A stretch of DNA of 33,648 bases from Bacillota bacterium (GTDB taxonomy: Bacteria > Bacillota > DTU025 > JANLFS01): NCBI GenBank assembly GCA_024655925.1, contig JANLFS010000021.1, forward strand, positions 1 through 33,648, read 5' to 3'. The translations under genes and the position numbers were made by a program. Within the stretch, counting starts at the first letter, position 1. Each line of letters opens with the position of its first letter. Positions 14,756 to 29,965 of the stretch are shown piece after piece. The notes below the pieces were generated by a model. It had not been told where the DNA came from, did not search any database, and worked only from the letters and a program-made list of their open reading frames with translations.

Positions 14756-16441
14756 GTGTCTTTGCCAGTCGGTCTTCTGGCCGTGATCGCGCTGGTCCCA
14801 ATCCTGGTAGCTTTGGTGCTCATGACCGTCATGATGTGGCCTGGAAAGAAAGCCATGCCCATCGCCTGGCTGGTAACGGTAATCTTGGCTGCAATTTTCT
14901 GGAGGATGCCTGCCCAGTGGCTTGCTGCCGCCTCCATAAACGGTGCGCTCGGCGCCGTGAACATCCTCATAATCGTATTTGGCGCCATTCTCGTCATGAA
15001 CACTCTCCAAAACAGCGGCGCGATGAAGACAATTAGCGCGGGTTTCTACGGCATTTCCCCTGACCGTCGCGTTCAGGCGGTAATCGTTGGGTGGTTGTTC
15101 GGCGCACTGATCGAGGGCGCAGCCGGGTTTGGAACACCGGCCGCACTCGCAGGGCCTCTCATGGTCGGCTTGGGGTTTCCGCCCATGGCCGCGGCGATGG
15201 TCGCCCTGATCTTCAACTGCACCCCCGTATCCTTCGGCGCGGTGGGAACCCCAATTCTCGCAGGTGTCTCTTCGGCCTTACGTGGCATCGTCGAGGCAGA
15301 CCTGCCAGTGGGACTCGCATTCTCCCAGTTCCTGCACGACGTGGGCGTCTACACGGCCTTGGTGCACGGCATCTGCGGGACCTTCCTGCCGGTCCTGGGG
15401 ATTGGAATGATGACTAAGTTCTTCGGTGAGAAGAAGAGCTTCCGGGAGGGCCTCGAGATCCTCCCGTTCGCGATCTTTGCCGGCCTCGCGTTCACCGTCC
15501 CATACTTCCTGATCGCCATGTTCATAAGCCCCGAACTCCCATCCCTGGCCGGGGCGGCGATCGGTCTAGTCATTGTGCTCTATGCCAGCTCCAAAGGGTT
15601 CCTTGTGCCCAAGCAGGCATGGGACTTCCCCGCCCGAAGCAAGTGGGAGTCCAACTGGGTAGGCACGCTCGAACCTGAGTCGAAGAGGGAGAAAGGCACC
15701 ATGTCCATGTTCCTGGCGTGGCTGCCCTACCTCATGATCGTGGGCCTTCTGGTCATAACCAGAATCCCTGCGATCGGGCTCAAGCAGCTACTTACGTCTC
15801 CCAAGGTCACGATCAGCTGGGTCAATATTCTGGGCACCAACATCAAGTACTCCCTGCAGCCCCTGTATGTGCCGGGGATTATCCCATTCACCCTGGTCGG
15901 CCTGGTGACTTTCGTGATCCACAGCATGAAACCGGATGCTATCTCGAGGACTCTGCGCAAGACTTTCACTCAGATGGTCCCGGCCACTGTCACGCTCGTG
16001 TTCACAGTGGCTATGGTGGAGATCTTCAAAGCCTCGGGGACCCCCGCCAAGATCGACAGCATGCTGATTGTGATGTCTAAGGCCGCGGCCGATCTGGTTG
16101 GCAGGGCATGGCCCCTGTTCGCGCCTTTCGTGGGGATCCTCGGTGCGTTCATCGCGGGGTCCAACACTGTGTCGAACATTCTCTTCACCGGGTTCCAGTA
16201 TGGTGTCGCCAAAGAGCTGGCGATATCCCGGTACATCATCATCGCCCTTCAGGTCCTCGGCGGCGCTGCGGGCAACATGATCTGCGTGCATAACGTGGTC
16301 GCAGCCTGCACAACGGTGGGCACCACGGCCATTGAGGGCGTGATTATCAGGAGAAACCTCGTGCCGTGTTTCGTCTACGGTGCGGCGGCGGGGATCATCG
16401 GGCTGCTCGCAGCCTACTTGATCGCTCCTGGCCTCTGGTGA
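14756..16441 (+). CDS. lctP: L-lactate permease family transporter
   Basis: This 561-residue protein with about 13-14 membrane helices is of the LctP/LldP family, which imports lactate or glycolate with protons. Family segments are clear: [28 protein letters not shown] near residues 115-145, [13 protein letters not shown] shortly after, and near the C-terminus [16 protein letters not shown] followed by [15 protein letters not shown]. The length is normal. The GTG start has AAGGAGGG 5-7 bases upstream. It is first gene of the Hdr/Flx cluster, preceded by two FadR-type palindromes and followed by a strong hairpin before glcD. Lactate is the likelier substrate, but glycolate cannot be excluded from sequence. 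Confidence 0.92.
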
Positions 16442-16496
16442 TACCCGGTTCATCTCCGGTGGCGGGCCACATGCGGACATCCGGCTGTGCTCGCAG

Positions 16497-16532
16497 GCGG
16501 GTGAGCGGGGTGCTAAGTACCCGCTCACCCGC
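16497..16532 (+). terminator. Strong GC-rich hairpin between permease and glcD
   Basis: GCGGGTGAGCGGG at 16497-16509 pairs perfectly over 13 bases with CCCGCTCACCCGC at 16520-16532, leaving a 10-base loop. No clear T-run follows (only ctttcccc). It is more likely an attenuator or mRNA processing/stability element that sets different levels for the permease and the enzymes than a full terminator. Confidence 0.5.
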
Positions 16533-16613
16533 GGCCCGACGCCTTTCCCCCGGGTCTCCCGGGCCTCCGCCCCTGGGGCAGACTCGATATCAAGAAGCGA
16601 GGGGGACGAAAAC

Positions 16614-18020
16614 ATGTGTGCACTCCCCGCAGACGTTCTGCTCGACCGCGTCACATCCATCGTGCCGCGTGAACATGTGCTGGCCAAGTTCGCTGACAGG
16701 CTCTGCTACTCTTACGATTCCACCAATATCGAACACATGCCGGATGTTGTGGTCCGGCCCGGTTCAGCCGGGGAGATCTCAGAGGTGCTCAAGCTCGCCA
16801 ACGCCACGGGGACCCCTGTGTTCCCCAGAGGGGCCGGTACCGGGCTCTCGGGGGGATCCGTCCCTATCACCGGTGGGATCGTGATGGATCTGACCAGGAT
16901 GAACAGGATCCTCGACATCGATACCGCAAACCTGCTCGCAGTGGTGGAGCCGGGCGTCGTGACTCTGGACCTTTTCAACAAAGCGGCCTCCCTGGGGCTT
17001 CTCTACCCTCCCGATCCCGGATCCAACACTGTCTCCACGATAGGCGGGAACGTGGCGGAAAACGCCGGGGGATTGCGCGGCCTCAAGTACGGAGTCACCA
17101 AGGACTACATCATGGCCTTGGAGATCGTCTCTCCCGAGGGCGGGATCTGGCGGTCAGGGTCCAAGACTGTCAAGTGCGTAACCGGGTACGACCTCACGAA
17201 GCTCATGGTCGGGTCCGAGGGGACACTCGGAGTGTTCACCAGCATTACGTGCAAGCTCGTGCCCATGCCTGAACACAGTGTGGCCATGCTCGCCGTGTTC
17301 GACGACATCGACCTGGCCGCGGCCACGGTCGCCGCCATCATAAGGGCTGGTATCCTTCCATCTACTCTGGAGTTCCTGGACCGCGTAACGTGCAACGTCA
17401 TCGAGGACTTCAAACCCTGCGGTCTTCCGCGCGATGCCGAGGCTGTGCTCCTGTTAGAGGCAGATGGCGTGCTCGAAGCCGCAACCAAGCAGGCAAAGAA
17501 GATGACCGACATCGCCAGCCTTGAAGGCGCCCGCGAAGTCATCGTCGCCAAGAACGAAGAAGAGAAGGCAAGGGTCTGGTCAGGCAGGCGTGCGGCCCTC
17601 GGAGCGCTCGCCCGGGTGAGGCCGACCACGATCCTGGAGGACGCGACTGTGCCCAGGAGCGAGATCCCGGCGATGGTGAGGGCGGTCCGTGAAATCGCAT
17701 CGAAGTACAACCTCATGATAGGCACGTTCGGCCACGCAGGTGACGGGAACCTCCACCCCACCATACTGACGGATGAGCGTGACCGGGAGGAGATGCACAG
17801 AGTGGAGGCAGCCATTGATGAGCTGTTCAAGACGGCCCTGGCCCTGGGAGGCACGCTCTCGGGTGAGCACGGGATCGGGCTTGCCAAGGCGCCCTTCCTC
17901 CACATGGAAATGGGTGAGGTTGGCCTCGCCACTATGCGAAGGATCAAGCAGGCCTTGGACCCGAAGAACATACTCAACCCCGGAAAAATGGCGCTCGAAC
18001 TCGGAGGTGACCCGAGGTGA
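16614..18020 (+). CDS. glcD: FAD-linked 2-hydroxy-acid dehydrogenase, GlcD family
   Basis: This 468-residue flavoprotein of the PCMH/VAO type oxidises D-lactate or glycolate. The FAD-binding domain shows PRGAGTGLSGGSVP (about 71-84), PPDPGS and GGNVAENAGG with LKYGVTKDY. The C-terminal domain has FGHAGDGNLHP and SGEHGIG, the metal/substrate motifs of GlcD-like enzymes, and the protein ends in ALDPKNILNPGKM, the usual tail. The ATG follows GAGGGGGAC. Its stop overlaps a possible start of the next gene, an HdrD/GlcF-type Fe-S protein, so the two are probably subunits of one dehydrogenase. D-lactate versus glycolate specificity is not decidable here; the permease favours lactate. Confidence 0.92.
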   Translation: MCALPADVLLDRVTSIVPREHVLAKFADRLCYSYDSTNIEHMPDVVVRPGSAGEISEVLKLANATGTPVFPRGAGTGLSGGSVPITGGIVMDLTRMNRILDIDTANLLAVVEPGVVTLDLFNKAASLGLLYPPDPGSNTVSTIGGNVAENAGGLRGLKYGVTKDYIMALEIVSPEGGIWRSGSKTVKCVTGYDLTKLMVGSEGTLGVFTSITCKLVPMPEHSVAMLAVFDDIDLAAATVAAIIRAGILPSTLEFLDRVTCNVIEDFKPCGLPRDAEAVLLLEADGVLEAATKQAKKMTDIASLEGAREVIVAKNEEEKARVWSGRRAALGALARVRPTTILEDATVPRSEIPAMVRAVREIASKYNLMIGTFGHAGDGNLHPTILTDERDREEMHRVEAAIDELFKTALALGGTLSGEHGIGLAKAPFLHMEMGEVGLATMRRIKQALDPKNILNPGKMALELGGDPR

Positions 18021-18025
18021 CGACG

Positions 18026-19189
18026 ATGAGTCGTGACGAGTTGCTGGATAGACTGATGCCCTGCATGAAGTGCGGGCTGTGCCGGGCCTCCTGCCCTATC
18101 TTCACCGAGGTCGGGGTCGAGACGTCCGTCGCCCGTGGGAAAGTCCGGTTGATCAAAGGCCTTTTGAGGGGCGAGTTCTCCCCGGACGATGACATCGCGT
18201 CCCGCATATACCTTTGCCTCCTGTGCAAGCAGTGCACGACTACTTGCCCGAGCGGAGTTGAAGTCGACGATATCATCGCGGGGGGCCGCGAGTATCTGGT
18301 ATCCCAGGGGTACGCGCCTGAGCCAATGCGCATCCTCTCTGCCGCCCTGACTGAAGCGAGGAACATCACCGGCGAGCCCCGGGCCAACCGGACTCTGTGG
18401 ATGGATGACCTTGAAACCAGACCCAGGCAGGTGGAACCCGGCCACACGGCCGGGGTCGACATCATCTACTACACCGGCTGCGTCGCCGCTCTGTTCCCAA
18501 CCGTCTGGGCAATACCACAGTCACTTGTCCAGCTCTTCCGGCGCGCCGGGCTCAACTTCGCGGTCCTTGGGGGGGAAGAGTGGTGTTGCGGGTACCCGAT
18601 GATGGGCGGGGGCATCACCGCTGAGCTCAAGGATTTCGTCAGCCATAACGTCGGGGCGATCGAGGAGACAGGGGCACGCACTCTCGTAACTGGATGTCCG
18701 TCCTGCTATCATGCGTGGAAATACGACTATCCCAGGATCGTCGGGCGAGACCTCCCATTCGAGGTAGTTCACTCGTCCCAGCTCCTTGAAGGCCTTATCC
18801 AGCAGAGGGCGCTGGCCCTTGGCCCGGTTGATTCCACAGTCACTTATCACGACCCCTGCGATCTTGGGAGGAAGAGCGGCGTGTTCGACGCTCCCAGGAA
18901 CATCATCAGAAGCATCCCGGAGCTACAATTCCTGGAGATGGCGAAGAGCCGGGACAACGCCATATGCTGCGGCGGAGGCGGAAATCTGGAGATGCTCTTC
19001 CCCGATACCACCGAAGCCGTGGCGAGCCGAAAAATATCTCAGATCCGGGAGGTCGGCGCATCCACCGTGGTATCATCCTGCCAGCAGTGTAAGAGAACGA
19101 TCGCGGCAGCAGTCCGGCGCGAAAAGGCCCGGGTGCGCGTGCTCGATATCGCTGAACTCCTCCTGAAGTCGGTGCAGGCCGCTGAGTAA
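18026..19189 (+). CDS. glcF: GlcF/HdrD-like Fe-S protein with two CCG domains
   Basis: This protein has two N-terminal [4Fe-4S] motifs (CMKCGLCRASCP starting at residue 13, then CLLCKQCTTTCP) and two cysteine-rich CCG domains. Both CCG signatures are complete: TGCVAAL...EWCCGYP...GCPSC, then YHDPCDLG...ICCGGGG...SCQQC. GlcF passes electrons from GlcD; HdrD/HdrB members use the CCG sites to bind non-cubane clusters that reduce disulfides. It is closely similar to the HdrC-HdrB fusion at 21633, pointing to duplication. ATG at 18026 has GAGGTG about 8 bases upstream; GTG at 18017, overlapping the glcD stop, is an alternative. I infer that it connects GlcD to the rest of the cluster. Confidence 0.88.
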   Translation: MSRDELLDRLMPCMKCGLCRASCPIFTEVGVETSVARGKVRLIKGLLRGEFSPDDDIASRIYLCLLCKQCTTTCPSGVEVDDIIAGGREYLVSQGYAPEPMRILSAALTEARNITGEPRANRTLWMDDLETRPRQVEPGHTAGVDIIYYTGCVAALFPTVWAIPQSLVQLFRRAGLNFAVLGGEEWCCGYPMMGGGITAELKDFVSHNVGAIEETGARTLVTGCPSCYHAWKYDYPRIVGRDLPFEVVHSSQLLEGLIQQRALALGPVDSTVTYHDPCDLGRKSGVFDAPRNIIRSIPELQFLEMAKSRDNAICCGGGGNLEMLFPDTTEAVASRKISQIREVGASTVVSSCQQCKRTIAAAVRREKARVRVLDIAELLLKSVQAAE

Positions 19190-19221
19190 GCCAGTCCACT
19201 GTGGACATTGGAGGGACTTGC

Positions 19222-21180
19222 ATGGAACGATCTGAAAGACTCGCAGAGAAGGTCAAGGCGGGCCTTCTCGATCGGGACTCCAGGCGCGGGCGACGGGTGG
19301 CCCTGGACGTCATCGTCCCCAAGCATATCGAGAAGGCCAAACAGTACCCGGCTCTCTCTCGCCGGCTCCGCGAGGTCAAGGCCTACTCCATCGCGAACCT
19401 CGACGCCCTCGTCGAACAGGCCATAGCCTCTCTTGAGGCCGTCGGGTGCAAGGTCTTCTATGCGAAGACCGGCGAGGAAGCCGTCGAGTACATCAAGACC
19501 GTGATACCCAGCGGGGTTGTGGTGAAATCCAAGAGTAACGCGGGCAAAGAGATCGGTCTCGTGGAGGCGCTCGAGGCGCGGGGAGTCACCGTGATCGAGA
19601 CGGACCTTGGAGACCGCATTGTGCAACTCGCCGGCGCGCACCCCAGCCACTCACTGGTGCCCGCTCTGCACATTCCCATCGACAAGATTGCCCAGTTGTT
19701 CACGAAGGAGATGGGGTGCGAGGTTCTGCCGGACCTCGACCAAATCATTGCGGCCGCCCGCCGGGGCCTCCTCGACTACATGCTCCGGGCGGACTATGGC
19801 CTCTCAGGGGCGAACGCAATCGCGGCGGACTGCGGTGCCATCTTCCTCATCGAGAATGAGGGCAATATCCGGGCTGTTACGAACTTGCCACACACACACG
19901 TAGTCATAGCCGGCATCGAGAAGATCGTCCCGACGCCACAGGACGCTCTGACTGTGGTCCAGGCTGCCTCAGTCTATGGGCTTGGGCAGGACCTTGGGAC
20001 TTATGTCTCGTGCATCTCAGGCCCAAGCCGCACCGGGGATGTGGAGTACAAGGTGGCTCTGGGCATGCACGGGCCTAAGGAAGTCCACGTGGTCCTCATG
20101 GACAACGGCCGCAGGCAGGCCATACGCGATGGGTACGGCGAGCTACTCTACTGCACGAACTGCGGGAGTTGCTTGAACTTCTGTCCGGTCTACGGGGCCA
20201 TAGGGGAGCACTACGGACACAAATACCTGGGCGGCCGCGGTATCGCTTTCACCGCCTACCATGCAGGTCTCGGCACAGCACAAGATGAGGGGCTTTCGTT
20301 CTGTACCACGTGCGAGAGCTGCAAGCAGGTCTGCCCGGCCGGGATCGATGCACCGAGACTCGTGGCGAAGCTCAGGCGACACGCCTGTTCAAAAGGGGAA
20401 GGATTCAGCACCTACGACGAAATCAAGTCTACCGTGGACAGGTATGGGAACCCCTACGCCGAACAACGCGTTGGCTACAAGTACAGGAAGCCCAGGGCCG
20501 ACGCTGTGGTGTTCGTCGGGTGTGTCGCGTCCTTTCGAGAGCGCGAGGCAGCGGAGGCGTCACTGGCCTTGCTGGATCGAGTGGGTGTGGACTTCACCAC
20601 CATCGACGAGCACTGCTGCGGCGGGGTGTACGAGGACATCGGCCACGACCCGAACCCTGCGTTCGTCCGGGCAAACCACGATGCCATCGTGGCTGCAGGC
20701 GCCCATCGAATCGTGTTTCTCTGCCCAAGGTGTGAGCGGTTCTTCAAGGATACTCCGGCATTCAACGCGTTTGAGCTTCTGAACATCGCCGAACTCCTCG
20801 CGAAGATGGATCTACCTGTCACTACTTCGAAGAAAGTCACCTATCACGACCCGTGTCACCTCGGCCGCTCACAGGGTTGCTTCGACGCTCCACGGGAGGT
20901 CCTCAGAAGGATCACCCCGGACTTCGTCGAGCCCCTCCGCGCGGGCAAGTACAGCAGGTGTTGCGGGGCTGGGTCAGTGGTCCGCGGGGTCTATCCTCGT
21001 TTGTCGCTGGACATGTCCAGAACCAGAATCGCGGAGCTCGCGTCCGAAGAGCCTGACGTGATTCTGACCGAGTGCCCCGCGTGCCTGCATAACCTGAAGA
21101 ATGCGAAGAAGAGCACGGACGAGTTTGAGATCTACAACATATCCGAGTTCATCGAGAAGCTCTTCTCTGAGAAGGGCTGA
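19222..21180 (+). CDS. LutB-type LUD protein fused to ferredoxin and two CCG domains
   Basis: This is a 652-residue fusion. Residues about 30-300 form a LUD domain as in LutB/LutC of the lactate-utilisation LutABC complex (VVKSKSNAGKEIGL, ADCGAIFLIENEGN). Two [4Fe-4S] motifs follow, starting at Cys311 (CTNCGSCLNFCP) and Cys361 (CTTCESCKQVCP). Two complete CCG domains close the protein: VGCVASF...HCCGG...CPRC and YHDPCHLG...RCCGAG...CPAC. It is thus a LutB plus LutA/HdrB-like protein in one chain. ATG at 19222 with GGAGGG 7 bases upstream is preferred over the upstream GTG at 19201. It sits between glcF and the lipoyl carrier. It may be a second lactate oxidation route or an Fe-S adaptor; the fusion is unlike canonical LutABC. 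Confidence 0.88.
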   Translation: MERSERLAEKVKAGLLDRDSRRGRRVALDVIVPKHIEKAKQYPALSRRLREVKAYSIANLDALVEQAIASLEAVGCKVFYAKTGEEAVEYIKTVIPSGVVVKSKSNAGKEIGLVEALEARGVTVIETDLGDRIVQLAGAHPSHSLVPALHIPIDKIAQLFTKEMGCEVLPDLDQIIAAARRGLLDYMLRADYGLSGANAIAADCGAIFLIENEGNIRAVTNLPHTHVVIAGIEKIVPTPQDALTVVQAASVYGLGQDLGTYVSCISGPSRTGDVEYKVALGMHGPKEVHVVLMDNGRRQAIRDGYGELLYCTNCGSCLNFCPVYGAIGEHYGHKYLGGRGIAFTAYHAGLGTAQDEGLSFCTTCESCKQVCPAGIDAPRLVAKLRRHACSKGEGFSTYDEIKSTVDRYGNPYAEQRVGYKYRKPRADAVVFVGCVASFREREAAEASLALLDRVGVDFTTIDEHCCGGVYEDIGHDPNPAFVRANHDAIVAAGAHRIVFLCPRCERFFKDTPAFNAFELLNIAELLAKMDLPVTTSKKVTYHDPCHLGRSQGCFDAPREVLRRITPDFVEPLRAGKYSRCCGAGSVVRGVYPRLSLDMSRTRIAELASEEPDVILTECPACLHNLKNAKKSTDEFEIYNISEFIEKLFSEKG

Positions 21181-21195
21181 TAGGAGGTTTCGTCT

Positions 21196-21636
21196 GTGAA
21201 GATTCGAGACTACGAGTTCCCTGATGACCTCTACTATGACCGGTACCACGGGTGGGCCAGGCTCGAGGGGAACAAGATCACAACCGGAATAACCGACTTC
21301 GCTCAGAAGCTCGCGGGGGAGATAGTCTACATCGCCCTGCCCGCGCGAAATCGCACCCTGGAGCGTGACAAACCATACGTCTCTTTGGAGTCCGGCAAGT
21401 GGGTCGGGCGTGTGAATTCGCCTGTGGCGGGCAAGGTTCTCCGGGTCAACACCGAGCTCGAGGACGACCCGGCGCCTCTCAACGACGACCCCTACGGTGA
21501 GGGATGGATCGCCGAGATCGAGATGGCGGAACCCGCGTCCACCGAGGCTTTCATGAGGACCGGCCCAGATCTGGAAGCCTTCATCCAGTCCGAGATCGAC
21601 AGGATCGAGCAAGAGAAAGCGGAGCGGGAGAAATGA
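21196..21636 (+). CDS. GcvH-like lipoyl carrier protein (LbpA-like)
   Basis: This is a 146-residue biotinyl/lipoyl-domain protein. The fold markers of glycine cleavage H protein are present: HGWARLEGNKITTGITDFAQKLAGEI, YVSLES, and SPVAGKVLRVN. The modified lysine should be Lys68, but its context is ESGKWVG rather than the ESVKA of true GcvH. The C-terminal 35 residues are a charged tail that GcvH usually lacks. Start is GTG with TAGGAGG 8-9 bases upstream, and its stop overlaps the next gene (ATGA). No gcvP or gcvT is nearby; neighbours are Hdr-type disulfide reductase subunits, and a lipoate ligase closes the cluster. A lipoyl electron carrier, as in the sHdr-LbpA system, fits better than glycine cleavage. 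That role is inference. Confidence 0.88.
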   Translation: MKIRDYEFPDDLYYDRYHGWARLEGNKITTGITDFAQKLAGEIVYIALPARNRTLERDKPYVSLESGKWVGRVNSPVAGKVLRVNTELEDDPAPLNDDPYGEGWIAEIEMAEPASTEAFMRTGPDLEAFIQSEIDRIEQEKAEREK

Positions 21637-22850
21637 TCTCGAAGGTGATTACGGAGGAGTCCATCGCGGTCGGACGGGCCGAGAGACTTGCGGCAGGCTT
21701 CGAAGACGGCCGCCGGCTGCTCGCTTGCATCCAGTGTGGCACGTGCACCGGCACCTGCCCTGCGTCCACCGGGATGGACATAACCCCGCGCCAAGTCTTC
21801 CGCATGGCTCAGCTGGGCATGATCGACGAGTTGATGGAGTCGCGCACCTTGTGGCAGTGCGCTACGTGTGCGTCATGCAAGGTGAAATGCCCAAGGGGAA
21901 TCCCCCTGTCTGACCTCATGCTCGAACTCCGCCGAGAGTATGTGAGGCAGCGTGGCGCCCCAGAAGCGATGGGGAACCTCGCCAGGATGCTGGACGAAAG
22001 GCACAACCTGACGGGAGATCCACCTGACAACAGGCTCCTCTGGTCCCTGAACATGGATCCGGTTCCCGATGGCCTCGACAGGCGCAAGGGAGCCCAGGTT
22101 GTGTACTTCACTGGCTGCGTCGCCGGTCTGTTCCCCGCGGTATCGGGAATACCTCAATCCCTTGCAACGCTGCTCAGAGCGGCCAGGGTGGATTTCACGA
22201 CCTTGGGCGGCGATGAATGGTGCTGCGGATTCCCCCTTTTCGGCGCGGGTGTGCCCGAGAGGGCCCAGGCCGCCGCCAGGCACAACGTCGACGAGATACG
22301 GAGGCTTGGCCCTTCGACCATGGTCACGTCCTGCCCATCGTGCTACCACACCTTCGTCCACAAGTACGAAAGCCTCATCGGAGAGAGCCTCGGCTTTCGG
22401 GTGGTCCATTCCACGGAGTTCCTCCGCGAGCTTGCCTCATCTGGCAGACTTCCTTTGGGGACAATCAATGAGGTCGTCACCTACCACGACCCTTGCGACC
22501 TCGGCAGGAAAAGCGGTATCTACGATGCGCCCAGGGATCTGATCAACATGGTGCCCGGCATGGAGTTCCGCGAAATGAGGTACGCCCGAGAGAACGCCAA
22601 GTGCTGTGGGGGCGGAGGCAATCTCGAGATGAACGACAAATCTATCTCTGAATCCATCGCGGAACAAAGGGTAGCCCAGGCTGCCGAGACCGGAGCCAGG
22701 ATTCTCCTGTCCGCATGCCAGCAATGCAAGAGAACGCTCCAATCCGCGGCTAGGCGTGCGAGGACCAAGATCAAGGTGGTTGATCTCACCGAACTCCTCG
22801 TCCGCTCAGTTGAGGTGGGTCAAGCAGAATCGGGGGTAGGCGCGCCATGA
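21633..22850 (+). CDS. hdrD: HdrC-HdrB fusion (HdrD-like heterodisulfide reductase subunit)
   Basis: In this 405-residue protein the HdrC part has two [4Fe-4S] motifs at Cys32-35-38-42 and Cys76-79-82-86. The HdrB part has two complete CCG signatures (TGCVAGL...EWCCGFP...SCPSC and YHDPCDLG...KCCGGGG...ACQQC) that would hold the disulfide-reducing non-cubane clusters. The ATG at 21633 overlaps the stop of the lipoyl protein gene by four bases, and its own stop overlaps hdrA, so the three are translationally coupled. This adjacency suggests that the lipoyl disulfide is the substrate of the CCG site, which is inference. It is a close paralogue of the glcF product in the same operon. Confidence 0.88.
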   Translation: MISKVITEESIAVGRAERLAAGFEDGRRLLACIQCGTCTGTCPASTGMDITPRQVFRMAQLGMIDELMESRTLWQCATCASCKVKCPRGIPLSDLMLELRREYVRQRGAPEAMGNLARMLDERHNLTGDPPDNRLLWSLNMDPVPDGLDRRKGAQVVYFTGCVAGLFPAVSGIPQSLATLLRAARVDFTTLGGDEWCCGFPLFGAGVPERAQAAARHNVDEIRRLGPSTMVTSCPSCYHTFVHKYESLIGESLGFRVVHSTEFLRELASSGRLPLGTINEVVTYHDPCDLGRKSGIYDAPRDLINMVPGMEFREMRYARENAKCCGGGGNLEMNDKSISESIAEQRVAQAAETGARILLSACQQCKRTLQSAARRARTKIKVVDLTELLVRSVEVGQAESGVGAP

Positions 22851-24835
22851 AGAGGATCGGAGTGTACATCTGCCACTGCGGCACTAACATCGCTGGGGCT
22901 GTCGATTGCAGTAAGGTTTCGCGCTACGCTTCGGGTCTTCCCGGGGTTGTGGTCGCCCGCGACTACGTGTATACTTGCTCCGACCCGGGGCAAGAGATGA
23001 TCAAGCAGGACATAGCTGGGCACAAGCTCGATCGCGTCGTGATTGGGGCGTGTTCCCCCAGGATGCACGAACCGACCTTCCGGAACACACTGGCCGAGGC
23101 GGGCCTTTCTCCGTTCCACCTGCAGATGGCCAACTTGAGGGAACACGTGTCCTGGGTGACCCACGACCGGGAAGAGGCCACGGCCAAGGCCATGGACCTC
23201 ATCCGTGCGGCAGTTGCCCGAGTCACGCTCCATACAGACCTTGCGAGTCTCGAGGTCCCCATAACCAAACGCGCGTTGGTGGTTGGAGGGGGAATCGCGG
23301 GCATCCAGGCCGCGCTCGACATCGCCAATGCGGGTTACCACGTATACCTGGTAGAGCGTGAGCCAAGCATCGGCGGGCACATGGCCCAACTCGACAAGAC
23401 CTTCCCCACACTTGACTGCTCCGCATGTATCCTCACACCCAAGATGGTGGACGTCTCCCGCCATCCCAACATCGATCTCCTGGCGTACAGCGAGGTTGTC
23501 GAGGTCGCAGGATACGTCGGGAACTTCCGGGTCCGTGTGAGGCACAAGCCCCGCTATGTAGATTCCTCCAAGTGCACGGGGTGTGGGGACTGCGTAGAGG
23601 CGTGCGTCATGAAGAAGAGGATCCCCTCTGAATTCGAGGCGGGGATGGGAGGCCGTAGCGCAGTCTACATCCCCTTCCCCCAGGCGGTTCCGCTCAAGGC
23701 GGTCGTGGATGGAACCCGATGCCTCTTCCTCACCAGGGGGAAGTGCACCAGGGCATGCGAGGAAGCATGTTCGCGCGGAGCGATCAGGTTCGACGACTCG
23801 GAGCGGGACTCAGAGCTCGAAGTGGGTGCTGTGGTGCTGGCCACAGGGTATGATCTGTTCGATGCGAGGACCAAGCCCCAGTACGGTTACGGCATCCTGA
23901 AGAACGTCATAGACGGCCTTCAGTTCGAACGCCTGGCGTGTGCTTCCGGCCCCACAGATGGCAAGATCGTGCTTGCCAACGGGTGTGAGCCGGAGGCCAT
24001 AGCCTTCCTGCACTGTATAGGTTCTCGAGATGTCAACTCTAACCGGTACTGTTCGCGAGTGTGTTGCATGTACTCGATGAAGCAGGCACACCTGGCGCGA
24101 GACAAGACCAGGGCCCGGGTGTACGAGTTCTACATCGACATCCGAGCGGCGGGCAAAGGCTACGAGGAGTTCTATGAGAGAGTCCAGGAGGAAGGCGTGC
24201 ACTTCATCCGGGGCAAAGCCGCCGAGGTCTCAGAGCGCGACGGCAAGCTGGTTGTCCGGGCAGAGGATACCACTTTGGGCCGGCCTGTCGAGATCGCGGT
24301 CGACATGGTGGTCCTGGGAGCTGGGCTTACTCCGCGGTCGGATGCGGCTGAAGTCGCCCAAACTTTCCACGTGACGAGAAGTCAGGACGGGTTCTTCGCC
24401 GAGGCCCACCCCAAACTCAGGCCGGTGGAGACCAACACCAGAGGCATCTTCCTCGCCGGGGCTTGCCAAGGACCCAAGGACATCCCCGAGTCCGTGGCCC
24501 AGGCGACAGCGGCGGCGGGTAAAGTCACCGCCCTCTTCGCGCAGGACTTCCTCAGGACTGAGGCGATGATCGCACAGGTGAACGAAGCGATGTGCTCCGG
24601 ATGCCTCTGGTGCAAGCCGGTCTGCCCGTTCGGGGCCATCGAAGCGGTCACCATAACCGAGCGCTCCGGCCGCCGCACGGTCGAGCGCGAAGTAGCCCGG
24701 GTCAACCCCAGCCTGTGCCAAGGGTGCGGGGCATGCACCGCGGCATGCAGGACCGGGGCCATGTCACTCCTGGGATACACTGACAGGCAGGTCCTTGCGG
24801 AGGTGGATGCAATATGCCTTGGAACCCCCTCATAG
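22847..24835 (+). CDS. hdrA: HdrA, flavin-based electron-bifurcating subunit
   Basis: This is a full-length HdrA of 662 residues. The N-terminal domain has YICHCGTNIAG and IGACSPRMHEP. The FAD-binding Rossmann motif GGGIAGIQAALDIA is at 147-160, followed by LDCSACILTPKM. Central [4Fe-4S] motifs are Cys243-246-249-253 and Cys292-300-304-308 (CLFLTRGKCTRACEEAC). Two ferredoxin-type clusters lie at the C-terminus (CSGCLWCKPVCP, CQGCGACTAACR). HdrA splits or merges electron pairs between ferredoxin, the HdrBC disulfide site and a donor module. Here the donor or acceptor module would be the FlxDCBA set encoded directly downstream. All expected motifs are intact, so it should be functional. The gene overlaps both neighbours. 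Confidence 0.95.
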   Translation: MKRIGVYICHCGTNIAGAVDCSKVSRYASGLPGVVVARDYVYTCSDPGQEMIKQDIAGHKLDRVVIGACSPRMHEPTFRNTLAEAGLSPFHLQMANLREHVSWVTHDREEATAKAMDLIRAAVARVTLHTDLASLEVPITKRALVVGGGIAGIQAALDIANAGYHVYLVEREPSIGGHMAQLDKTFPTLDCSACILTPKMVDVSRHPNIDLLAYSEVVEVAGYVGNFRVRVRHKPRYVDSSKCTGCGDCVEACVMKKRIPSEFEAGMGGRSAVYIPFPQAVPLKAVVDGTRCLFLTRGKCTRACEEACSRGAIRFDDSERDSELEVGAVVLATGYDLFDARTKPQYGYGILKNVIDGLQFERLACASGPTDGKIVLANGCEPEAIAFLHCIGSRDVNSNRYCSRVCCMYSMKQAHLARDKTRARVYEFYIDIRAAGKGYEEFYERVQEEGVHFIRGKAAEVSERDGKLVVRAEDTTLGRPVEIAVDMVVLGAGLTPRSDAAEVAQTFHVTRSQDGFFAEAHPKLRPVETNTRGIFLAGACQGPKDIPESVAQATAAAGKVTALFAQDFLRTEAMIAQVNEAMCSGCLWCKPVCPFGAIEAVTITERSGRRTVEREVARVNPSLCQGCGACTAACRTGAMSLLGYTDRQVLAEVDAICLGTPS

Positions 24836-25230
24836 TCGCTTTCTGCTGCAATTGGTGCAGTTACGCCGGAGCGGACCTCGCAGGCACATCAAGGCTTGCC
24901 TACCCCGCGACGGTCAGGATAATCCGGGTTCCGTGCTCCGGGCGAGTGAATCCCCAGTACATCGTGAGGGCATTTCAGCGTGGGGCTGACGCCGTCCTGG
25001 TAGCTGGCTGTCATCCCGGGGATTGCCACTATTCCACCGGCAACTACTTCACACGCCGCCGGTTCCTTCTCGCCCGGACGTTCCTGGAGTACCTGGGGGT
25101 AGAGCCAGAGAGATTCCAGGTCCGCTGGATCTCGGGGTCGGAGGGACCCAAATTCCAGGAGACCATCAAGGAGATCACACAGGCCGTCCGGGCACTCGGG
25201 CCCAATCGAAAGCTGAGGGATGAGTCGTGA
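24814..25230 (+). CDS. flxD: MvhD/FlxD-type Fe-S electron transfer subunit
   Basis: This 138-residue protein has the MvhD signature: FCCNWCSYAGADLAGTSR at the N-terminus, VPCSGRVNPQYI, then GADAVLVAGCHPGDCHY and NYFTRRR. MvhD (FlxD in Flx clusters) carries a [2Fe-2S] cluster and docks an electron-input module onto HdrA. The start overlaps hdrA by 22 bases and the stop overlaps the next gene, so it is coupled to both. With FlxA, FlxB and FlxC downstream it should connect HdrA to the NAD(H) site. Confidence 0.93.
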   Translation: MPWNPLIVAFCCNWCSYAGADLAGTSRLAYPATVRIIRVPCSGRVNPQYIVRAFQRGADAVLVAGCHPGDCHYSTGNYFTRRRFLLARTFLEYLGVEPERFQVRWISGSEGPKFQETIKEITQAVRALGPNRKLRDES

Positions 25231-26138
25231 CCGATGCCACGTCACAGATCAGAGAGATTGCCAGAAACCTCCTCTCCGAAGGGCGAGTCCAGACGGTGCT
25301 GGGCTACGAAGAAGCGCCTTTGGGCCTTGGGCTCAGGCCGGCCTTCGTGCGGGAACCCAGTGGCACCGGCCGGCTGGTGTTCGACGCCCGCCCCACCCTG
25401 GGCCTGGCGAGGTACCTTCCAGGTGAGATCGCCTCAGCGCTCGCGCGGGCGGAGGATGGAGCGGCAGGGAGCGGTGGAACGACACGTGGTGCAACCGTGG
25501 CAGTGGTCGCTAAGGGGTGTGATGTCCGGGCGGTACTCCGCCTCGTCGCGGACAGGCGCATTCGCCGCGAGAACGTAATCCTCATAGGCGTCCCCTGCTC
25601 CGGCTCGATCGACGAAGAGCGTTTCCCGAGACTCATCGCCAAGTGTTCGGGATGCGACGCCCGCCTTCCGGAGGGATGCGACTTCACCATCGAGACCATG
25701 GCCGAACCCCGGCCGGCTGACCGTCACCGGCCGCTCAAGGTCGAGGATCTCGAAGGAATGACCGCCGACGAGCGTTACACCTTCTGGCAGAGGCAGTTTG
25801 CCAGGTGCATAAGGTGCTTCGCATGCCGGAGCGTCTGCCCGGCGTGCGGGTGCCGCGAGTGTGCCCTGGAATCAAGATCTCCAGTGTGGCTCGAGCGTGA
25901 CGTCAATCCCTCCACGCAATCGATGTTCCACTTCATGCGCCTCATGCACACTGCTGGACGGTGCGTGGACTGCGGCGAATGTGAGCGCGTCTGCCCGGTG
26001 GGAATCCCCCTCACGCTTCTCACGAGAAAGCTAATGTCGGACATACGCACTCTCTTCGGAGTGGAACACCCTGAGACTCCCGGAGACAGCGAGCCTCTCG
26101 CGAGGTTCGGCCTCTCCGACCCGGAGGAGTTCATATGA
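25227..26138 (+). CDS. flxC: FlxC-like protein with two [4Fe-4S] clusters
   Basis: This is a 303-residue protein. The N-terminal part (about 90-155) resembles the beta-subunit N-domain of F420 hydrogenase/formate dehydrogenase-type proteins, with KGCDVRAVLRLV, IGVPCSG and a CSGC motif. The C-terminal part holds two [4Fe-4S] motifs at Cys194-197-200-204 and Cys246-249-252-256. FlxC is one of the two ferredoxin-like electron-wire subunits of FlxABCD-HdrABC, the NADH dehydrogenase/heterodisulfide reductase of Desulfovibrio and other anaerobes. Start and stop both overlap neighbours by four bases. The family label rests on order and domain layout; the exact FlxC/FlxB naming could be swapped. Confidence 0.8.
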   Translation: MTDATSQIREIARNLLSEGRVQTVLGYEEAPLGLGLRPAFVREPSGTGRLVFDARPTLGLARYLPGEIASALARAEDGAAGSGGTTRGATVAVVAKGCDVRAVLRLVADRRIRRENVILIGVPCSGSIDEERFPRLIAKCSGCDARLPEGCDFTIETMAEPRPADRHRPLKVEDLEGMTADERYTFWQRQFARCIRCFACRSVCPACGCRECALESRSPVWLERDVNPSTQSMFHFMRLMHTAGRCVDCGECERVCPVGIPLTLLTRKLMSDIRTLFGVEHPETPGDSEPLARFGLSDPEEFI

Positions 26139-27205
26139 GAGAGTTCGAGGGGAGGAACGGTCAACCCATGCGCAAATTGAACCAGGGGGACCTTCCACTG
26201 TTTCTCGCCGAGGTCGCACAGGAGCGGGAGGTATTCGCCCCCGAGAAAGAGGACGGCGCAGTGGTCTTCCTGAGATGGTCCCCTGGCGATCCCGTCTTCA
26301 CGGATTACTTCAACACCGCTGTCTCCCCGAAGGGATTTGTCTTTCCTCAGTCTCAGAAGGTCCTCGACTTCGAGATGAAAAAGGGCTCGGAGTCCATCAC
26401 GGCCGCTCCGCCACCGATTCCCCGGGCGGTCTTCGGTGCCAGGCCATGCGACCTCGCCGCACTTGAGCTGCTGGATTTGGTGTTCCTCTCTGGCGAGTAC
26501 CGCGACGACTCCTACGCCCGAGAGCGGGAGAGCGTCCTTTGGATCGGGCTTGCATGCGTCGAGCCCGGAGAATCGTGCTTCTGCAACGTGTTCGGCATCA
26601 CCCCCGGATCGTCAAAAGGTGCAGATATCATGCTCTACCCCATTCCTCCAGCCTGGGGCGGCGGTTTCGCGGTCGAGGGACTGACGGCACTGGGCGAGGA
26701 GTTGTTGGCGACCAAAGCGAATTTGTTCGTGACCCTGCCTGATCCTGATGGGGCCGCCGTTGTGGCGGAGTATACCGGACGGATGACTTCCCTCGCGCGC
26801 CACCTCGACCTCGGGAACCTCCCGGAGTCGCTGCCCACACGGTTCAACGACCCATACTGGGCACGCTCATCCGAAAGGTGTCTGGAATGCGGCCTGTGCA
26901 CTTACACATGCCCCACCTGCCACTGTTTCGGGGTGTCGGACATTCCGAGAGGGACGGCTGGGCGACGGGTGCGGTCCTGGGACTCATGCATGTTCTCGGA
27001 ATTCCTGTTGATGGCGGGGGGACATAACCCGAGGCCCACTCGGGCGGAGAGGGTGAGACAGAGGTTCATGCACAAGCTCGCCTATGCTCCTGAGAGGTAC
27101 GGCCGCGCCTTCTGCGTGGGGTGCGGCAGATGTGTCGCCATGTGTCCGGCCGGGCTCTCCATGGCCACGGTTCTTCACGAGATCGGGGGAGTTCGCTGTG
27201 AGTGA
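26135..27205 (+). CDS. flxB: FlxB-like Fe-S oxidoreductase subunit
   Basis: This 356-residue protein belongs to the anaerobic sulfite reductase/hydrogenase beta-type family. The N-terminal domain carries FGARPCDLAALELLD and LACVEPGESCFCN, typical of 4Fe-4S dicluster beta subunits. Two [4Fe-4S] motifs follow, at Cys249-252-255-259 (CLECGLCTYTCP) and Cys327-330-333-337 (CVGCGRCVAMCP). It should pass electrons between the flavoprotein FlxA and HdrA through FlxD. The ATG overlaps the flxC stop and has GGAGG at 26123-26127. It overlaps flxA by 8 bases. Confidence 0.85.
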   Translation: MREFEGRNGQPMRKLNQGDLPLFLAEVAQEREVFAPEKEDGAVVFLRWSPGDPVFTDYFNTAVSPKGFVFPQSQKVLDFEMKKGSESITAAPPPIPRAVFGARPCDLAALELLDLVFLSGEYRDDSYARERESVLWIGLACVEPGESCFCNVFGITPGSSKGADIMLYPIPPAWGGGFAVEGLTALGEELLATKANLFVTLPDPDGAAVVAEYTGRMTSLARHLDLGNLPESLPTRFNDPYWARSSERCLECGLCTYTCPTCHCFGVSDIPRGTAGRRVRSWDSCMFSEFLLMAGGHNPRPTRAERVRQRFMHKLAYAPERYGRAFCVGCGRCVAMCPAGLSMATVLHEIGGVRCE

Positions 27206-28037
27206 GAGACTACTGCTGCCGTCCCTTGCCACCGTCACGTCGGTCCGCCCGGAGACCTTGTCCGGGGATGTGAGGACGTTCCAGGTTGAGTTCGATGACC
27301 CGGCGGACGCTGCTCGGTTCACCTACCTTCCAGGCCAATGTGCCATGGTCTCGGTGTTCGGAGTTGGGGAATGCATGATCTCCATCGCATCCTCCCCTAC
27401 ACGACTGGGGCCGCTGGAATTCGCCGTCAAGAAGGTAGGCATGGTCACTGAGGCCATTCACGAGCTCGAACCTGGCGCAAACCTGGGAGTGCGCGGCCCC
27501 TACGGCAACTGTTTCCCAGCTCACAACTGGCTCGGCCAGAACCTGCTGTTCGTCGCTGGCGGCATCGGCCTTGCACCTCTTCGGTCACTTGTCAACTACT
27601 GCCTTGACAAACGGGAAGACTATGGGACAATTGACCTTGTATACGGCGCAAGAACCCCGGGGGACCTCTGCTTTCGCGATGAACTCCAAGAAGTCTGGTC
27701 AAAGGCTCCCGACACCCGCGTCAACCTGACCGTGGATCGAGGAGACGATACCTGGGCGGGCCCGGTCGGTTTTGTTCCCGCTTTTCTCGAGAGCCTCGCA
27801 CCTGACCCATCGGGAAGGATCGCTGTCACCTGCGGGCCTCCCATCATGATCAAGCTGGTCCTGGAGTCCCTGACCCGCCTCGGGTTCCCGCCGGAACGGA
27901 TCATCACGACGCTCGAGATGAAGATGCAGTGTGGCGTGGGCAAATGCGGGCGGTGCAATGTCGGGGCGAAGTACGTGTGCGTGGACGGCCCAGTGTTCTC
28001 CCTGCGGGACCTGGAGGGACTCCCTGAGGAGTTCTGA
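27198..28037 (+). CDS. flxA: FlxA-like NAD(P)/FAD oxidoreductase
   Basis: This 279-residue ferredoxin-reductase-type flavoprotein is like the HydG/FlxA group. The FAD domain has YLPGQCAMVSVFGVGE and ISIASSP. The nucleotide-binding part has VAGGIGLAPLRSL and VTCGPPIMI. The C-terminus has the cysteine cluster MQCGVGKCGRCNVG with a fourth Cys in YVCVDGP, a [2Fe-2S] site. It is the likely NAD(H)-reacting subunit of the complex. The open frame runs further upstream, but GTG at 27198 is the right start because it begins the conserved domain and overlaps the flxB stop. It is the last of the electron-transfer genes. Confidence 0.9.
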   Translation: MSERLLLPSLATVTSVRPETLSGDVRTFQVEFDDPADAARFTYLPGQCAMVSVFGVGECMISIASSPTRLGPLEFAVKKVGMVTEAIHELEPGANLGVRGPYGNCFPAHNWLGQNLLFVAGGIGLAPLRSLVNYCLDKREDYGTIDLVYGARTPGDLCFRDELQEVWSKAPDTRVNLTVDRGDDTWAGPVGFVPAFLESLAPDPSGRIAVTCGPPIMIKLVLESLTRLGFPPERIITTLEMKMQCGVGKCGRCNVGAKYVCVDGPVFSLRDLEGLPEEF

Positions 28038-28075
28038 TGCCGGCTGGCGCGCGTCTACAATGGGGGATTACATCG

Positions 28076-28849
28076 ATGTATCTTAAGCCAATCCGTACCC
28101 GCAAAGTCTACGAAGAGATCGTCGACCAGATACGCTCACTCATCACCTCAGGCGCGCTCAAACCCGGGGACAAGCTCCCTCCCGAGAGGGAACTTGCGGA
28201 CACCCTGAAGGTGAGCCGCGCATCAGTCAGAGAGGCCTTGACCGTGCTCGAATCGAGAGGAATAATCGAGAGCCGGCCCGGTGGCGGCACCTTCATCCGA
28301 GAGTCCACGGTGGAATCGTTCGCAGAGCCTTTCGCCCTGATGCTCATGCAGTCCCGAACCTCAAGTTTCGCGCTGCTCGAGCTGCGAACCATTCTGGAGT
28401 CCGAGGCTGCCGCACTCGCAGCCAAGCGCGCTTCCCCCGAGGACATCGAGCGCATGATGGAATACGTCGGGCAGATGGAGGCAGACGTTGCGGCTGGAGG
28501 CCTCGGTGACCATGCCGATTTCGACTTCCATCTGTCCATTGCGGAGGCTACCAAGAATGCGATGCTGGTTCGAGTCATGGCGGGCATATCGGACGTCTTC
28601 GCACAGAGCCTGAGGACAAGCAGGCTCCGGCTGTTCACACTCCCCGGCGGCTCCAAGACCTTGCTCGATCAGCACGTCGAAATAGCTCAGCGCATCGCGG
28701 AGCGCGATGCTCGCGGCGCAAAACGCGCCATGCGAAATCATCTGCTGTATGTCAGGGATAAACTCCAGGAATTCGAACGCGGAGAGAAGACCGAGGCTTC
28801 CGAAGCGAAGCAAGCGGAGAACGTCCTCCGACGGGAGCAAGGAGAGTGA
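28076..28849 (+). CDS. GntR-family transcription regulator, FadR/FCD subfamily
   Basis: This is a 257-residue regulator. The winged helix occupies residues 1-75 (KVYEEIVDQI, LPPERELADTLKVSRASVREAL, the wing RPGGGTFI). The ligand-binding FCD domain has the metal-binding set Asp148, His152, His200 and His222. FCD regulators such as LldR, GlcC and PdhR respond to lactate, glycolate or pyruvate, which fits the cluster. ATG at 28076 begins at the family's normal position; an upstream ATG at 28037 overlaps the flxA stop but adds residues with no similarity. Likely operators are the palindromes at 14538 and 14589 upstream of lctP and perhaps 6836 between the pgs and permease operons. Confidence 0.9.
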   Translation: MYLKPIRTRKVYEEIVDQIRSLITSGALKPGDKLPPERELADTLKVSRASVREALTVLESRGIIESRPGGGTFIRESTVESFAEPFALMLMQSRTSSFALLELRTILESEAAALAAKRASPEDIERMMEYVGQMEADVAAGGLGDHADFDFHLSIAEATKNAMLVRVMAGISDVFAQSLRTSRLRLFTLPGGSKTLLDQHVEIAQRIAERDARGAKRAMRNHLLYVRDKLQEFERGEKTEASEAKQAENVLRREQGE

Positions 28850-28858
28850 TGGCCGCAA

Positions 28859-29965
28859 ATGCCCGGCAGTGAATGGAGGCTTCTCGACCTGGGGGAGCTG
28901 CCCCCAGTTGAAACCCAGTCCGTCTACCACGCTGTTGCTTCCTGTGTCGGCTCAGGCCGCTCTCCTGACACCCTCATAATCTGCTGGCCAGCTTCCCCGC
29001 TTGTCTGTATCGGTTACCACCAGGTTGCGTCGAAAGAAGTAGCGATGGATCGGTGTGCTGAACGGGGCTACCCGGTGGTCAGGCGGATGCTGGGCGGAGG
29101 AGCAGTCCTCCTCAATTCCGACCAACTCTTCTACCAGGTGATAGCATCCGGGACCAATCGGTCCGCCCCGTCTACCATCGACGGCCTTTTCAGATTCTTC
29201 CTCCAGGCCCCCGTGGAGACCTACAGGGCACTTGGTATCCCTGCAGTCTACAGGCCCATAAACGACATTGAGGTGGACGGACGAAAGATCTCCGGAAACG
29301 GCGGAGGGTTGATCGAAGGAGCAAAGGTCATTACCGGCAACATCATTTTCGATTTCCCCTTCGATGAGATGCCCCAACTCTTGCGCGTCCCAGACGAGAA
29401 GTTCAGGGACAAGATTCGCGCCACTCTCTGCGACCGGATGACTACGATCCAGAGAGAACTGGGCCGTCGGCCACCGCTGTCGGAGGTCAAGAGCATGCTT
29501 ATCGACCAGTTCGTGCAGGTGCTCGGGGGGGCCCTCGTCCCCGGATCCCTCACTGACCTCGAGCGCGAGCGGCTTGTCGAGATCACCCGAACATACTCCG
29601 GCGCAGAGTGGCTGAATCAGCGAAGTCCCGGCGGCAAGGGAAGCGAATGTCCTGCGAAGAAAGTGAAGATCAGTGCGCGGACCAGCATCGTCGAGGCGGC
29701 TCACAAAGCCCCAGGCGGTTTGATCCGGGCGCTCATCGAGGTAACCGATGGGATCCTAACCGATGTATTTTTCTCAGGAGACTACTTTGTCAGCCCTCTG
29801 GACGGATTCGACCGACTCTCCTCAGAGCTTGTCGGGACTCGTTTGGACGCTGGTGCACTGCGCGCCGTGGTAGAGGAGTTCTTCGCCACGAGTGGCGTGG
29901 AGTCACCCGGGGTATCCGCAGAGGACGTGGTCGCGACCGTCATGGCCGCGGCGGCGCTCAGGTGA
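28859..29965 (+). CDS. lplA: Lipoate-protein ligase A-type enzyme with C-terminal accessory domain
   Basis: This is a 368-residue protein. The ligase core shows RRMLGGGAVLL at 75-85 (lipoate/AMP loop), NDIEVDGRKISGNGG with Lys143 as the catalytic lysine, and VITGNIIFDF. The usual His after GGGAV is replaced by Leu. The last 100 or so residues (KISARTSIVEAAHKAPGGLIRALIEV and onward) look like the LplB-type accessory domain, so this is a single-chain LplA-LplB arrangement. It would attach lipoate to the GcvH-like protein of the same cluster. It starts 9 bases after the regulator gene; a GGAG lies about 15 bases before the ATG, rather far. It ends the cluster and is convergent with the diguanylate cyclase gene. 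Confidence 0.88.
   Translation: MPGSEWRLLDLGELPPVETQSVYHAVASCVGSGRSPDTLIICWPASPLVCIGYHQVASKEVAMDRCAERGYPVVRRMLGGGAVLLNSDQLFYQVIASGTNRSAPSTIDGLFRFFLQAPVETYRALGIPAVYRPINDIEVDGRKISGNGGGLIEGAKVITGNIIFDFPFDEMPQLLRVPDEKFRDKIRATLCDRMTTIQRELGRRPPLSEVKSMLIDQFVQVLGGALVPGSLTDLERERLVEITRTYSGAEWLNQRSPGGKGSECPAKKVKISARTSIVEAAHKAPGGLIRALIEVTDGILTDVFFSGDYFVSPLDGFDRLSSELVGTRLDAGALRAVVEEFFATSGVESPGVSAEDVVATVMAAAALR

Follow-up and report, generated by a model that had tools for sequence, protein, structure and literature searches.

The window analysed here, a 33,648-nt stretch of contig JANLFS010000021.1 from a Bacillota bacterium, harbours an operon of thirteen genes that includes a lactate permease, a GlcD-type 2-hydroxy-acid dehydrogenase, Fe-S proteins with CCG domains, an HdrA-FlxDCBA unit, a lipoate ligase and a small lipoyl protein resembling the H protein of glycine cleavage (GcvH). 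This lipoyl protein belongs to a family, termed KW here after the residues at its lipoyl lysine, whose genes typically adjoin CCG/Hdr genes in several phyla. It is probable, if far from certain, that its disulfide serves as the electron carrier between the 2-hydroxy-acid dehydrogenase and HdrD-type subunits on the one side and Hdr-Flx on the other, in a pathway that would import and oxidise lactate or a close 2-hydroxy acid. The comparative genomic evidence supports the link of the lipoyl carrier to Hdr/CCG proteins, and from the gene content we infer lipoylation, the path, direction and stoichiometry of electron transfer, the role of ferredoxin and lactate as the exact substrate.

When 399 genomes of the window's phylum were compared with the window lipoyl protein, its best matches were well separated from ordinary GcvH. 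Alignments revealed a family motif, [EQ]S[GA]-K-W, at the lipoyl lysine, where ordinary GcvH has ES-V-K-A, and the KW proteins form a clade distinct from canonical GcvH (Shimodaira–Hasegawa-like approximate likelihood ratio test, SH-aLRT, 98). In common with glycine cleavage H proteins, the window carrier is predicted to adopt the H-protein fold: its AlphaFold2 model (predicted local distance difference test, pLDDT, 92.6; template modelling score to 1onl 0.83/0.95) places K68 on the hairpin tip between strands 60-66 and 69-74, the arrangement known from lipoylated H proteins.

The genomic surroundings of the two groups differ sharply. Loci of up to 20 kb (n=155) were fetched around matches in the window's phylum, in Desulfobacterota, in Chloroflexota and in named genomes (for the last, among the matches listed). 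They were picked by similarity to the window lipoyl protein, not by their neighbouring genes. The queries run against them were the window proteins and the glycine cleavage system (GCS) proteins of the source genome, "near" meaning within 6 kb. CCG/Hdr genes lie near 70 of the 84 KW proteins and near 2 of the 79 other GcvH proteins (Fisher p ~4e-29), the two exceptions being K-F/K-Y relatives that group with the KW clade. Conversely, gcvP or gcvT is near none of the 84 KW proteins and near 30 of the 79 others. The difference persists after clustering at 60% identity, both for CCG/Hdr genes (23/29 KW against 2/40 other GcvH) and for gcvP/gcvT (0/29 against 23/40). As defined here, by an ESG-K-W motif and a CCG/Hdr gene within 6 kb, the family includes the window carrier. 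The original prediction had named chance proximity of the lipoyl gene to Hdr as the finding that would break the proposed connection; the counts in the 155 loci rule this out, and the association of the family with CCG/Hdr genes extends over Bacillota, Desulfobacterota, Chloroflexota and Asgard archaea. Within 6 kb of the 84 KW genes there is also a GlcD-type gene in 35 cases, an LplAB ligase in 34 and LipS in 25. Some relatives carry Y instead of W after the lipoyl lysine (L305, L306 and L253, with ETGKYVG and EAGKYIG), and that of L253 adjoins CCG and LplAB genes.

A second way in which the proposal might have failed, namely that the GcvH-like protein works in glycine cleavage, is likewise not borne out. 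The source genome (3.21 Mb, 97.6% complete) contains on another contig, C4, a complete glycine cleavage operon encoding GcvT, GcvH, GcvPA, GcvPB, a LipS1-LipS2 fusion and an LplA-like ligase, with dihydrolipoyl dehydrogenase (Lpd) adjoining. The H protein of this operon is canonical, with ESVKAVAD at the lipoyl lysine where the window protein has ESGKWVG. The genome should thus be able to make protein-bound lipoate and has no need of the window carrier as an H protein, and this identity was rejected on the basis of the separate operon and the absence of gcvP/gcvT near KW genes. LipS1 and LipS2 are fused in one open frame, followed by the LplA-like ligase (L096:13105-16067, contig C4), both profiles scoring over their cut-offs, whilst no LipA above cut-off was found in the source genome.

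A close precedent is the sHdr-LbpA system of sulfur oxidation (Hyphomicrobium, Acidithiobacillus, Sulfolobaceae), in which the GcvH-like, lipoylated protein LbpA is linked to Hdr and served by LplAB and LipS1/S2 (PMC6067878, PMC10332631). An LplAB-type ligase and LipS1/LipS2 are encoded in the source genome as well. The operon could therefore be read as an sHdr variant whose lipoyl protein carries sulfane sulfur, and DsrE-like genes do occur at some KW loci. However, LbpA is distinguished by two cysteines, N- and C-terminal, that are not found in GcvH and are strictly conserved in most LbpA proteins, with exceptions among archaea (PMC6067878), whilst the window protein contains no cysteine at all. 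In the set analysed, the L145, L168 and L174 proteins have both cysteines and make up one clade (SH-aLRT 99); the only other protein with the pair, L087_12765, is placed apart. This clade is nested in the KW clade, with the window protein outside it, so that, judged from the sequence tree, the lipoyl family seems to extend beyond sulfur-oxidation LbpA, which would be one of its branches. Nor was any TusA/DsrE-type sulfur-transfer gene noted among the called genes of the window, including the operon (the whole genome was not searched for them); a lactate permease and dehydrogenase are found there instead, along with Flx. Identity with LbpA was rejected on the cysteine count and the clade position, and a role of the window carrier in sulfur transfer is unlikely, the sulfur-oxidation reading of the operon as a whole being given very little credence.

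The operon core is not confined to the window. The original prediction had suggested a search for recurrence of the GlcD, LUD-CCG, lipoyl, HdrA and FlxA block, which was found in part. Six Desulfobacterota genomes have their genes arranged as lipoyl gene, hdrC, hdrB, hdrA, flxD, flxC, flxB, flxA, glcD::ccg, as in the window but with GlcD and CCG1 fused (G741/L260; G413/L233+L310; G662/L238+L311; G778/L243+L312; G545/L242+L314; G596/L244+L315); L244 has an extra HdrA/FlxD pair inserted and a gap of ~2.4 kb ahead of glcD::ccg. By contrast, no LctP or LUD match occurs at the 75 other KW loci, so that lactate use would be a local variant of a more widespread system. Within the window's own group, most related orders and families likewise have no LUD-CCG, and the nearest one found (G014, 55% identity over residues 9-395) has a GntR gene beside it and no KW, Hdr or Flx gene. 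In Desulfobacterota, eight more loci (L245, L246, L254-L256, L264, L266, L268) have the KW gene flanked by Qmo-like HdrA/HdrC genes on one side and a GlcD-CCG fusion on the other, and also encode an AMP-forming acyl-CoA ligase. Six of these eight (L254, L255, L256, L264, L266, L268) additionally encode an HgdB-type protein, the D component of 2-hydroxyglutaryl-CoA dehydratase, and possibly represent a pathway for 2-hydroxy-acyl or aromatic acids. All full-length GlcD-CCG fusions retain the 2-hydroxy-acid motif GHxGDGN[LI]H/EHG, as does the window GlcD, and in Desulfarculaceae L103 a gene for the lactate racemase LarA stands between the KW gene and GlcD-CCG. Loci with the set of lipoyl gene, HdrCB, HdrA, MvhD and FlxCBA but no GlcD occur both in the window's phylum (L067-L069, L071, L088-L090) and in Chloroflexota (L251). 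Adjoining the KW gene of Desulfobacterota L231, L233-L237, L241 and L242 is an HdrD-like CCG gene followed by a gene for a ~284-aa membrane protein that gave no Pfam match, a pairing that suggests a membrane HdrDE-like dihydrolipoyl:quinone oxidoreductase.

Other members of the family keep different company. Several loci of the window's phylum (L077-L082, L084-L087, L098) combine a FAD oxidase, a CCG protein, one or two lipoyl genes, LplAB and LipS1/LipS2, often beside acetoin dehydrogenase genes; the 2-hydroxy-acid motif is missing from the FAD proteins of this group. Among Asgard archaea, KW-family matches were found in 97 of 228 genomes at E<=1e-25, and the 20 fetched loci, all with a KW or close KY motif, include nine with KW, FAD oxidase and CCG, two with HdrABC and two with an LplAB ligase 47% identical to that of the window. 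In the Thorarchaeota group of these archaea (L290-L297, L300) a conserved KW gene faces a FAD-oxidase and CCG pair ~1.2-2 kb away. Acetoin dehydrogenase E1/E2 genes lie near 12 of the 84 KW genes and NCBIfam models name many KW proteins GcvH, which would fit a carrier working in acyl transfer, as in 2-oxoacid or acetoin dehydrogenases, or as a second H protein, its place in the operon then reflecting pyruvate metabolism. Such a role is highly improbable for the window protein: its operon has no E1/E2 gene, a FAD oxidase and/or CCG protein also stands beside the KW gene at nearly all acetoin loci, and the gcvP/gcvT counts and the genome's own H protein speak against a second H protein. At L078, L079, L082 and L085-L087, where one or more KW proteins, a GlcD-like FAD protein and a CCG protein are encoded next to E1/E2, AcoX and a carboxymuconolactone-decarboxylase-like gene, Lpd was not detected within 6 kb, and the FAD/CCG pair may therefore replace E3 there.

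As the lipoyl carrier keeps company with HdrB/HdrD-type proteins, the simplest reading makes its disulfide the substrate of these proteins. In the window system, LctP would import lactate or a close 2-hydroxy acid, from which GlcD, and probably LUD-CCG too, would draw two electrons, which CCG1 would relay to the lipoyl disulfide. Once in the dihydrolipoyl form, the carrier would dock on CCG2-HdrA, where the HdrA flavin could merge its electrons with those of reduced ferredoxin, derived from pyruvate oxidation, for delivery by FlxDCBA to NAD+ (confurcation). The LplAB ligase of the operon would charge the carrier, with sulfur inserted by the LipS1-LipS2 fusion from the glycine cleavage operon. 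The hints to lactate as the substrate are the permease, the LldR-like regulator and the 2-hydroxy-acid motif only.

Several considerations weigh against this scheme. Standard potentials are approximately -190 mV for pyruvate/lactate, approximately -290 mV for lipoamide and -320 mV for NAD, from which it follows that the step from lactate to the lipoyl group is uphill by ~19 kJ/mol and must be pulled by the removal of pyruvate and by the step that ferredoxin drives. This first step is the main weakness of the proposal; the second is downhill, and the sum is feasible. Fourteen of the 84 KW genes have no CCG/Hdr gene within 6 kb, some being at contig ends or beside only LplA/LipS. The FAD proteins beside KW genes in acetogen-type and Asgard loci are without the 2-hydroxy-acid motif, so such acids are not oxidised by all members of the wider family. 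The window protein is itself a long branch, whose place in the KW clade is fixed by a tree of few columns no further than nearness to Chloroflexota proteins. Free lipoate did not couple to the Hdr-containing MTHFR complex of Sporomusa, although that is another enzyme (PMC9430772).

The uphill step would be avoided by direct Fe-S transfer from GlcD/CCG1 to HdrA, and the strongest rival builds on this: GlcD, CCG1, LUD-CCG, CCG2, HdrA and Flx would form one bifurcating lactate dehydrogenase, with the lipoyl protein as a side branch to Lpd or for thiol protection. Such an enzyme is energetically simplest, direct coupling is known in LctBCD, and Lpd is encoded in the source genome. It is nonetheless an unlikely explanation, as KW carriers are kept beside CCG/Hdr genes even where HdrA or Flx is missing, Lpd is near only 2 of the 84 KW genes, and the carrier gene is situated inside the operon between two CCG genes. 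The direction of electron flow might also be reversed, since the description of Flx-Hdr in Desulfovibrio has NADH as the electron donor for both ferredoxin and a disulfide. Hdr-Flx would then be bifurcating, the lipoyl protein a high-potential sink for some other reduction, and the lactate genes merely co-regulated. With an importer, dehydrogenases and an LldR-like regulator in the operon, and no obvious terminal reductase, there is little to recommend this alternative.

The lipoyl carrier scheme combines features of several known systems. FlxABCD-HdrABC, found in Desulfovibrio and others, likewise has HdrA, FlxD/C/B/A and an HdrBC equivalent encoded together, and the two CCG motifs of HdrB/HdrC are matched by CCG2 (and CCG1), with the HdrC-type clusters in the same chain. 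In contrast to that system, the operon adds a dedicated lipoyl carrier and ligase, GlcD, LUD-CCG and a lactate permease, and its HdrC and HdrB are fused. DsrC, the disulfide partner of Flx-Hdr in sulfate reducers, had been reported as missing from the window, and its absence extends to the whole source genome (no PF04358). The original prediction held that the lipoyl disulfide replaces DsrC; the connection of the carrier to Hdr stands, but the phrase is too narrow, since elsewhere the carrier accompanies acetoin dehydrogenase, Qmo-like Hdr sets and acyl-CoA genes. LctBCD-EtfAB of Acetobacterium woodii also pairs a GlcD/LctD-family flavoprotein with a flavin bifurcation device, whereas neither gene calls nor profile searches found Etf genes in the operon, where HdrA-Flx would be the device and the CCG proteins and lipoyl carrier are extra. 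LutABC and LdhH-LdhI share with the operon an LdhH-like LUD-CCG fusion, a FadR-type regulator and an LctP permease; unlike them, the operon has no second LUD gene (LutC or the small subunit LdhI) and has Hdr-Flx and the lipoyl carrier.

These parts are known; what was not found described is how far the KW family extends and the combination of a lipoyl carrier with Hdr-Flx and a 2-hydroxy-acid dehydrogenase. The open-access literature, which covers sHdr/LbpA, Flx-Hdr and LctBCD, yielded no description of a lipoyl-linked lactate/Hdr system, although subscription journals may hold one. An earlier proposal connected lactate dehydrogenase to LdlEFG by a thiol/disulfide link but specified no carrier (Meyer et al. 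2013, as cited in PMC3949148), and the lactate dehydrogenases of sulfate reducers have been suspected of using an unnamed thiol/disulfide carrier (PMC3949148). For the disulfide substrate of HdrB/HdrD-like proteins in non-methanogens, beyond DsrC and sHdr, the lipoyl protein is a concrete and testable candidate: KW-type carriers may be the disulfide on which many orphan Hdr-type enzymes work. More broadly, and more tentatively than for the window system, KW lipoyl proteins could be a general and ancient protein-bound disulfide cofactor, found in bacteria as well as Asgard archaea, with which many orphan HdrD/HdrABC-type enzymes work in place of the CoM-S-S-CoB of methanogens and the DsrC of sulfate reducers. 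They would serve the oxidation of 2-hydroxy acids, acetoin and other organic compounds; LbpA would be one specialised branch, and the window would hold the variant for lactate, working by ferredoxin/NAD confurcation. For many proteins now annotated as glycine-cleavage H proteins a function as redox carrier is probable. Metabolic models would be affected for anaerobes and for the Asgard archaea, in which the family is common.

Gene re-calling in the window, with assignment by Pfam and NCBIfam profiles, confirmed all thirteen genes of the operon in the families first ascribed to them, co-directional on the + strand and mostly overlapping (seven of the twelve junctions, by 4-22 nt, the remaining ones being 9-172 nt apart). 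The gcvH-like gene starts 15 nt past lud-ccg and overlaps ccg2 by 4 nt.

Genes of the operon, with the profile, motif and structure matches behind each assignment
Product	Position in window	Strand	Evidence
LctP-family lactate/glycolate permease	14756-16441	+	PF02652 (Lactate_perm) E=8e-111; TIGR00795 359.6 bits, over cut-off 341
GlcD-type FAD 2-hydroxy-acid dehydrogenase	16614-18020	+	PF01565 (FAD_binding_4) and PF02913 (FAD-oxidase_C); TIGR00387 516 bits, below equivalog cut-off 568
CCG1, HdrD/GlcF-like	18017-19189	+	PF13183 (Fer4_8), 2 x PF02754 (CCG); two [4Fe-4S] and two CCG (non-cubane) motifs
LUD-CCG fusion, LdhH-like (LutB+LutA)	19219-21180	+	PF02589, PF13183, 2 x PF02754; NF045670 LdhH 404 bits, below cut-off 800
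GcvH-like lipoyl carrier, KW type	21196-21636	+	PF01597 (GCV_H) E=2e-32; predicted lipoyl Lys68 in LESGKWVG; no cysteine
CCG2, second HdrC-HdrB-like protein	21633-22850	+	Fer4_17, 2 x CCG; HdrC profile TIGR03290 78 bits
HdrA, FAD electron-bifurcation module	22847-24835	+	NF040770 HdrA2 835 bits, below cut-off 1100; PDB HdrA chains 5odc, 8rvu E<1e-200
FlxD / MvhD-like	24814-25230	+	PF02662 FlpD E=3e-55
FlxC, Fe-S protein	25227-26138	+	Fer4_8; weak FrhB_FdhB_C; two CX2CX2CX3C motifs
FlxB, Fe-S protein	26135-27205	+	PF17179 Fer4_22 E=1e-34
FlxA, FAD/NAD(P)-binding subunit	27195-28037	+	PF00175 (NAD_binding_1), PF00970, PF10418 (DHODB_Fe-S_bind); sulfhydrogenase-gamma-type profiles
GntR/FCD regulator, best match LldR	28073-28849	+	PF00392 and PF07729; NF007741 LldR 184 bits, below cut-off 311
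LplAB-type lipoate/octanoate protein ligase	28859-29965	+	PF21948 (LplA-B_cat) and PF10437 (C-terminal domain); NF053749 LplB over residues 281-364

CCG1, CCG2 and LUD-CCG each contain two complete CX~30-40CCX~30-40CXXC motifs and two CX2CX2CX3C motifs, a set that in one chain corresponds to HdrC and HdrB joined in a single polypeptide, and CCG2 is the probable HdrBC part of the Hdr-Flx unit. The window GlcD possesses both GHAGDGNLH and GEHGIG, which we take to be the metal-binding motif of 2-hydroxy-acid dehydrogenases, and its closest PDB chains are glycolate oxidase 9qgz and LctD 7qh2 of the bifurcating lactate dehydrogenase.

Outside the operon, ~1.5 kb upstream and on the opposite strand, an FMN-dependent alpha-hydroxy-acid dehydrogenase with a cysteine-rich N-terminal stretch is encoded at 12241-13275 (-) (PF01070 E=8e-61), a pilT-like gene lying between; it is possibly a second lactate/2-hydroxy-acid enzyme. 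Further along the window, genes at 31795-33193 (+) resemble, by eye, an extracytoplasmic function (ECF) sigma factor and its zinc-finger anti-sigma partner, adjoining a GGDEF protein gene at 29988-31244 on the strand opposite to theirs.

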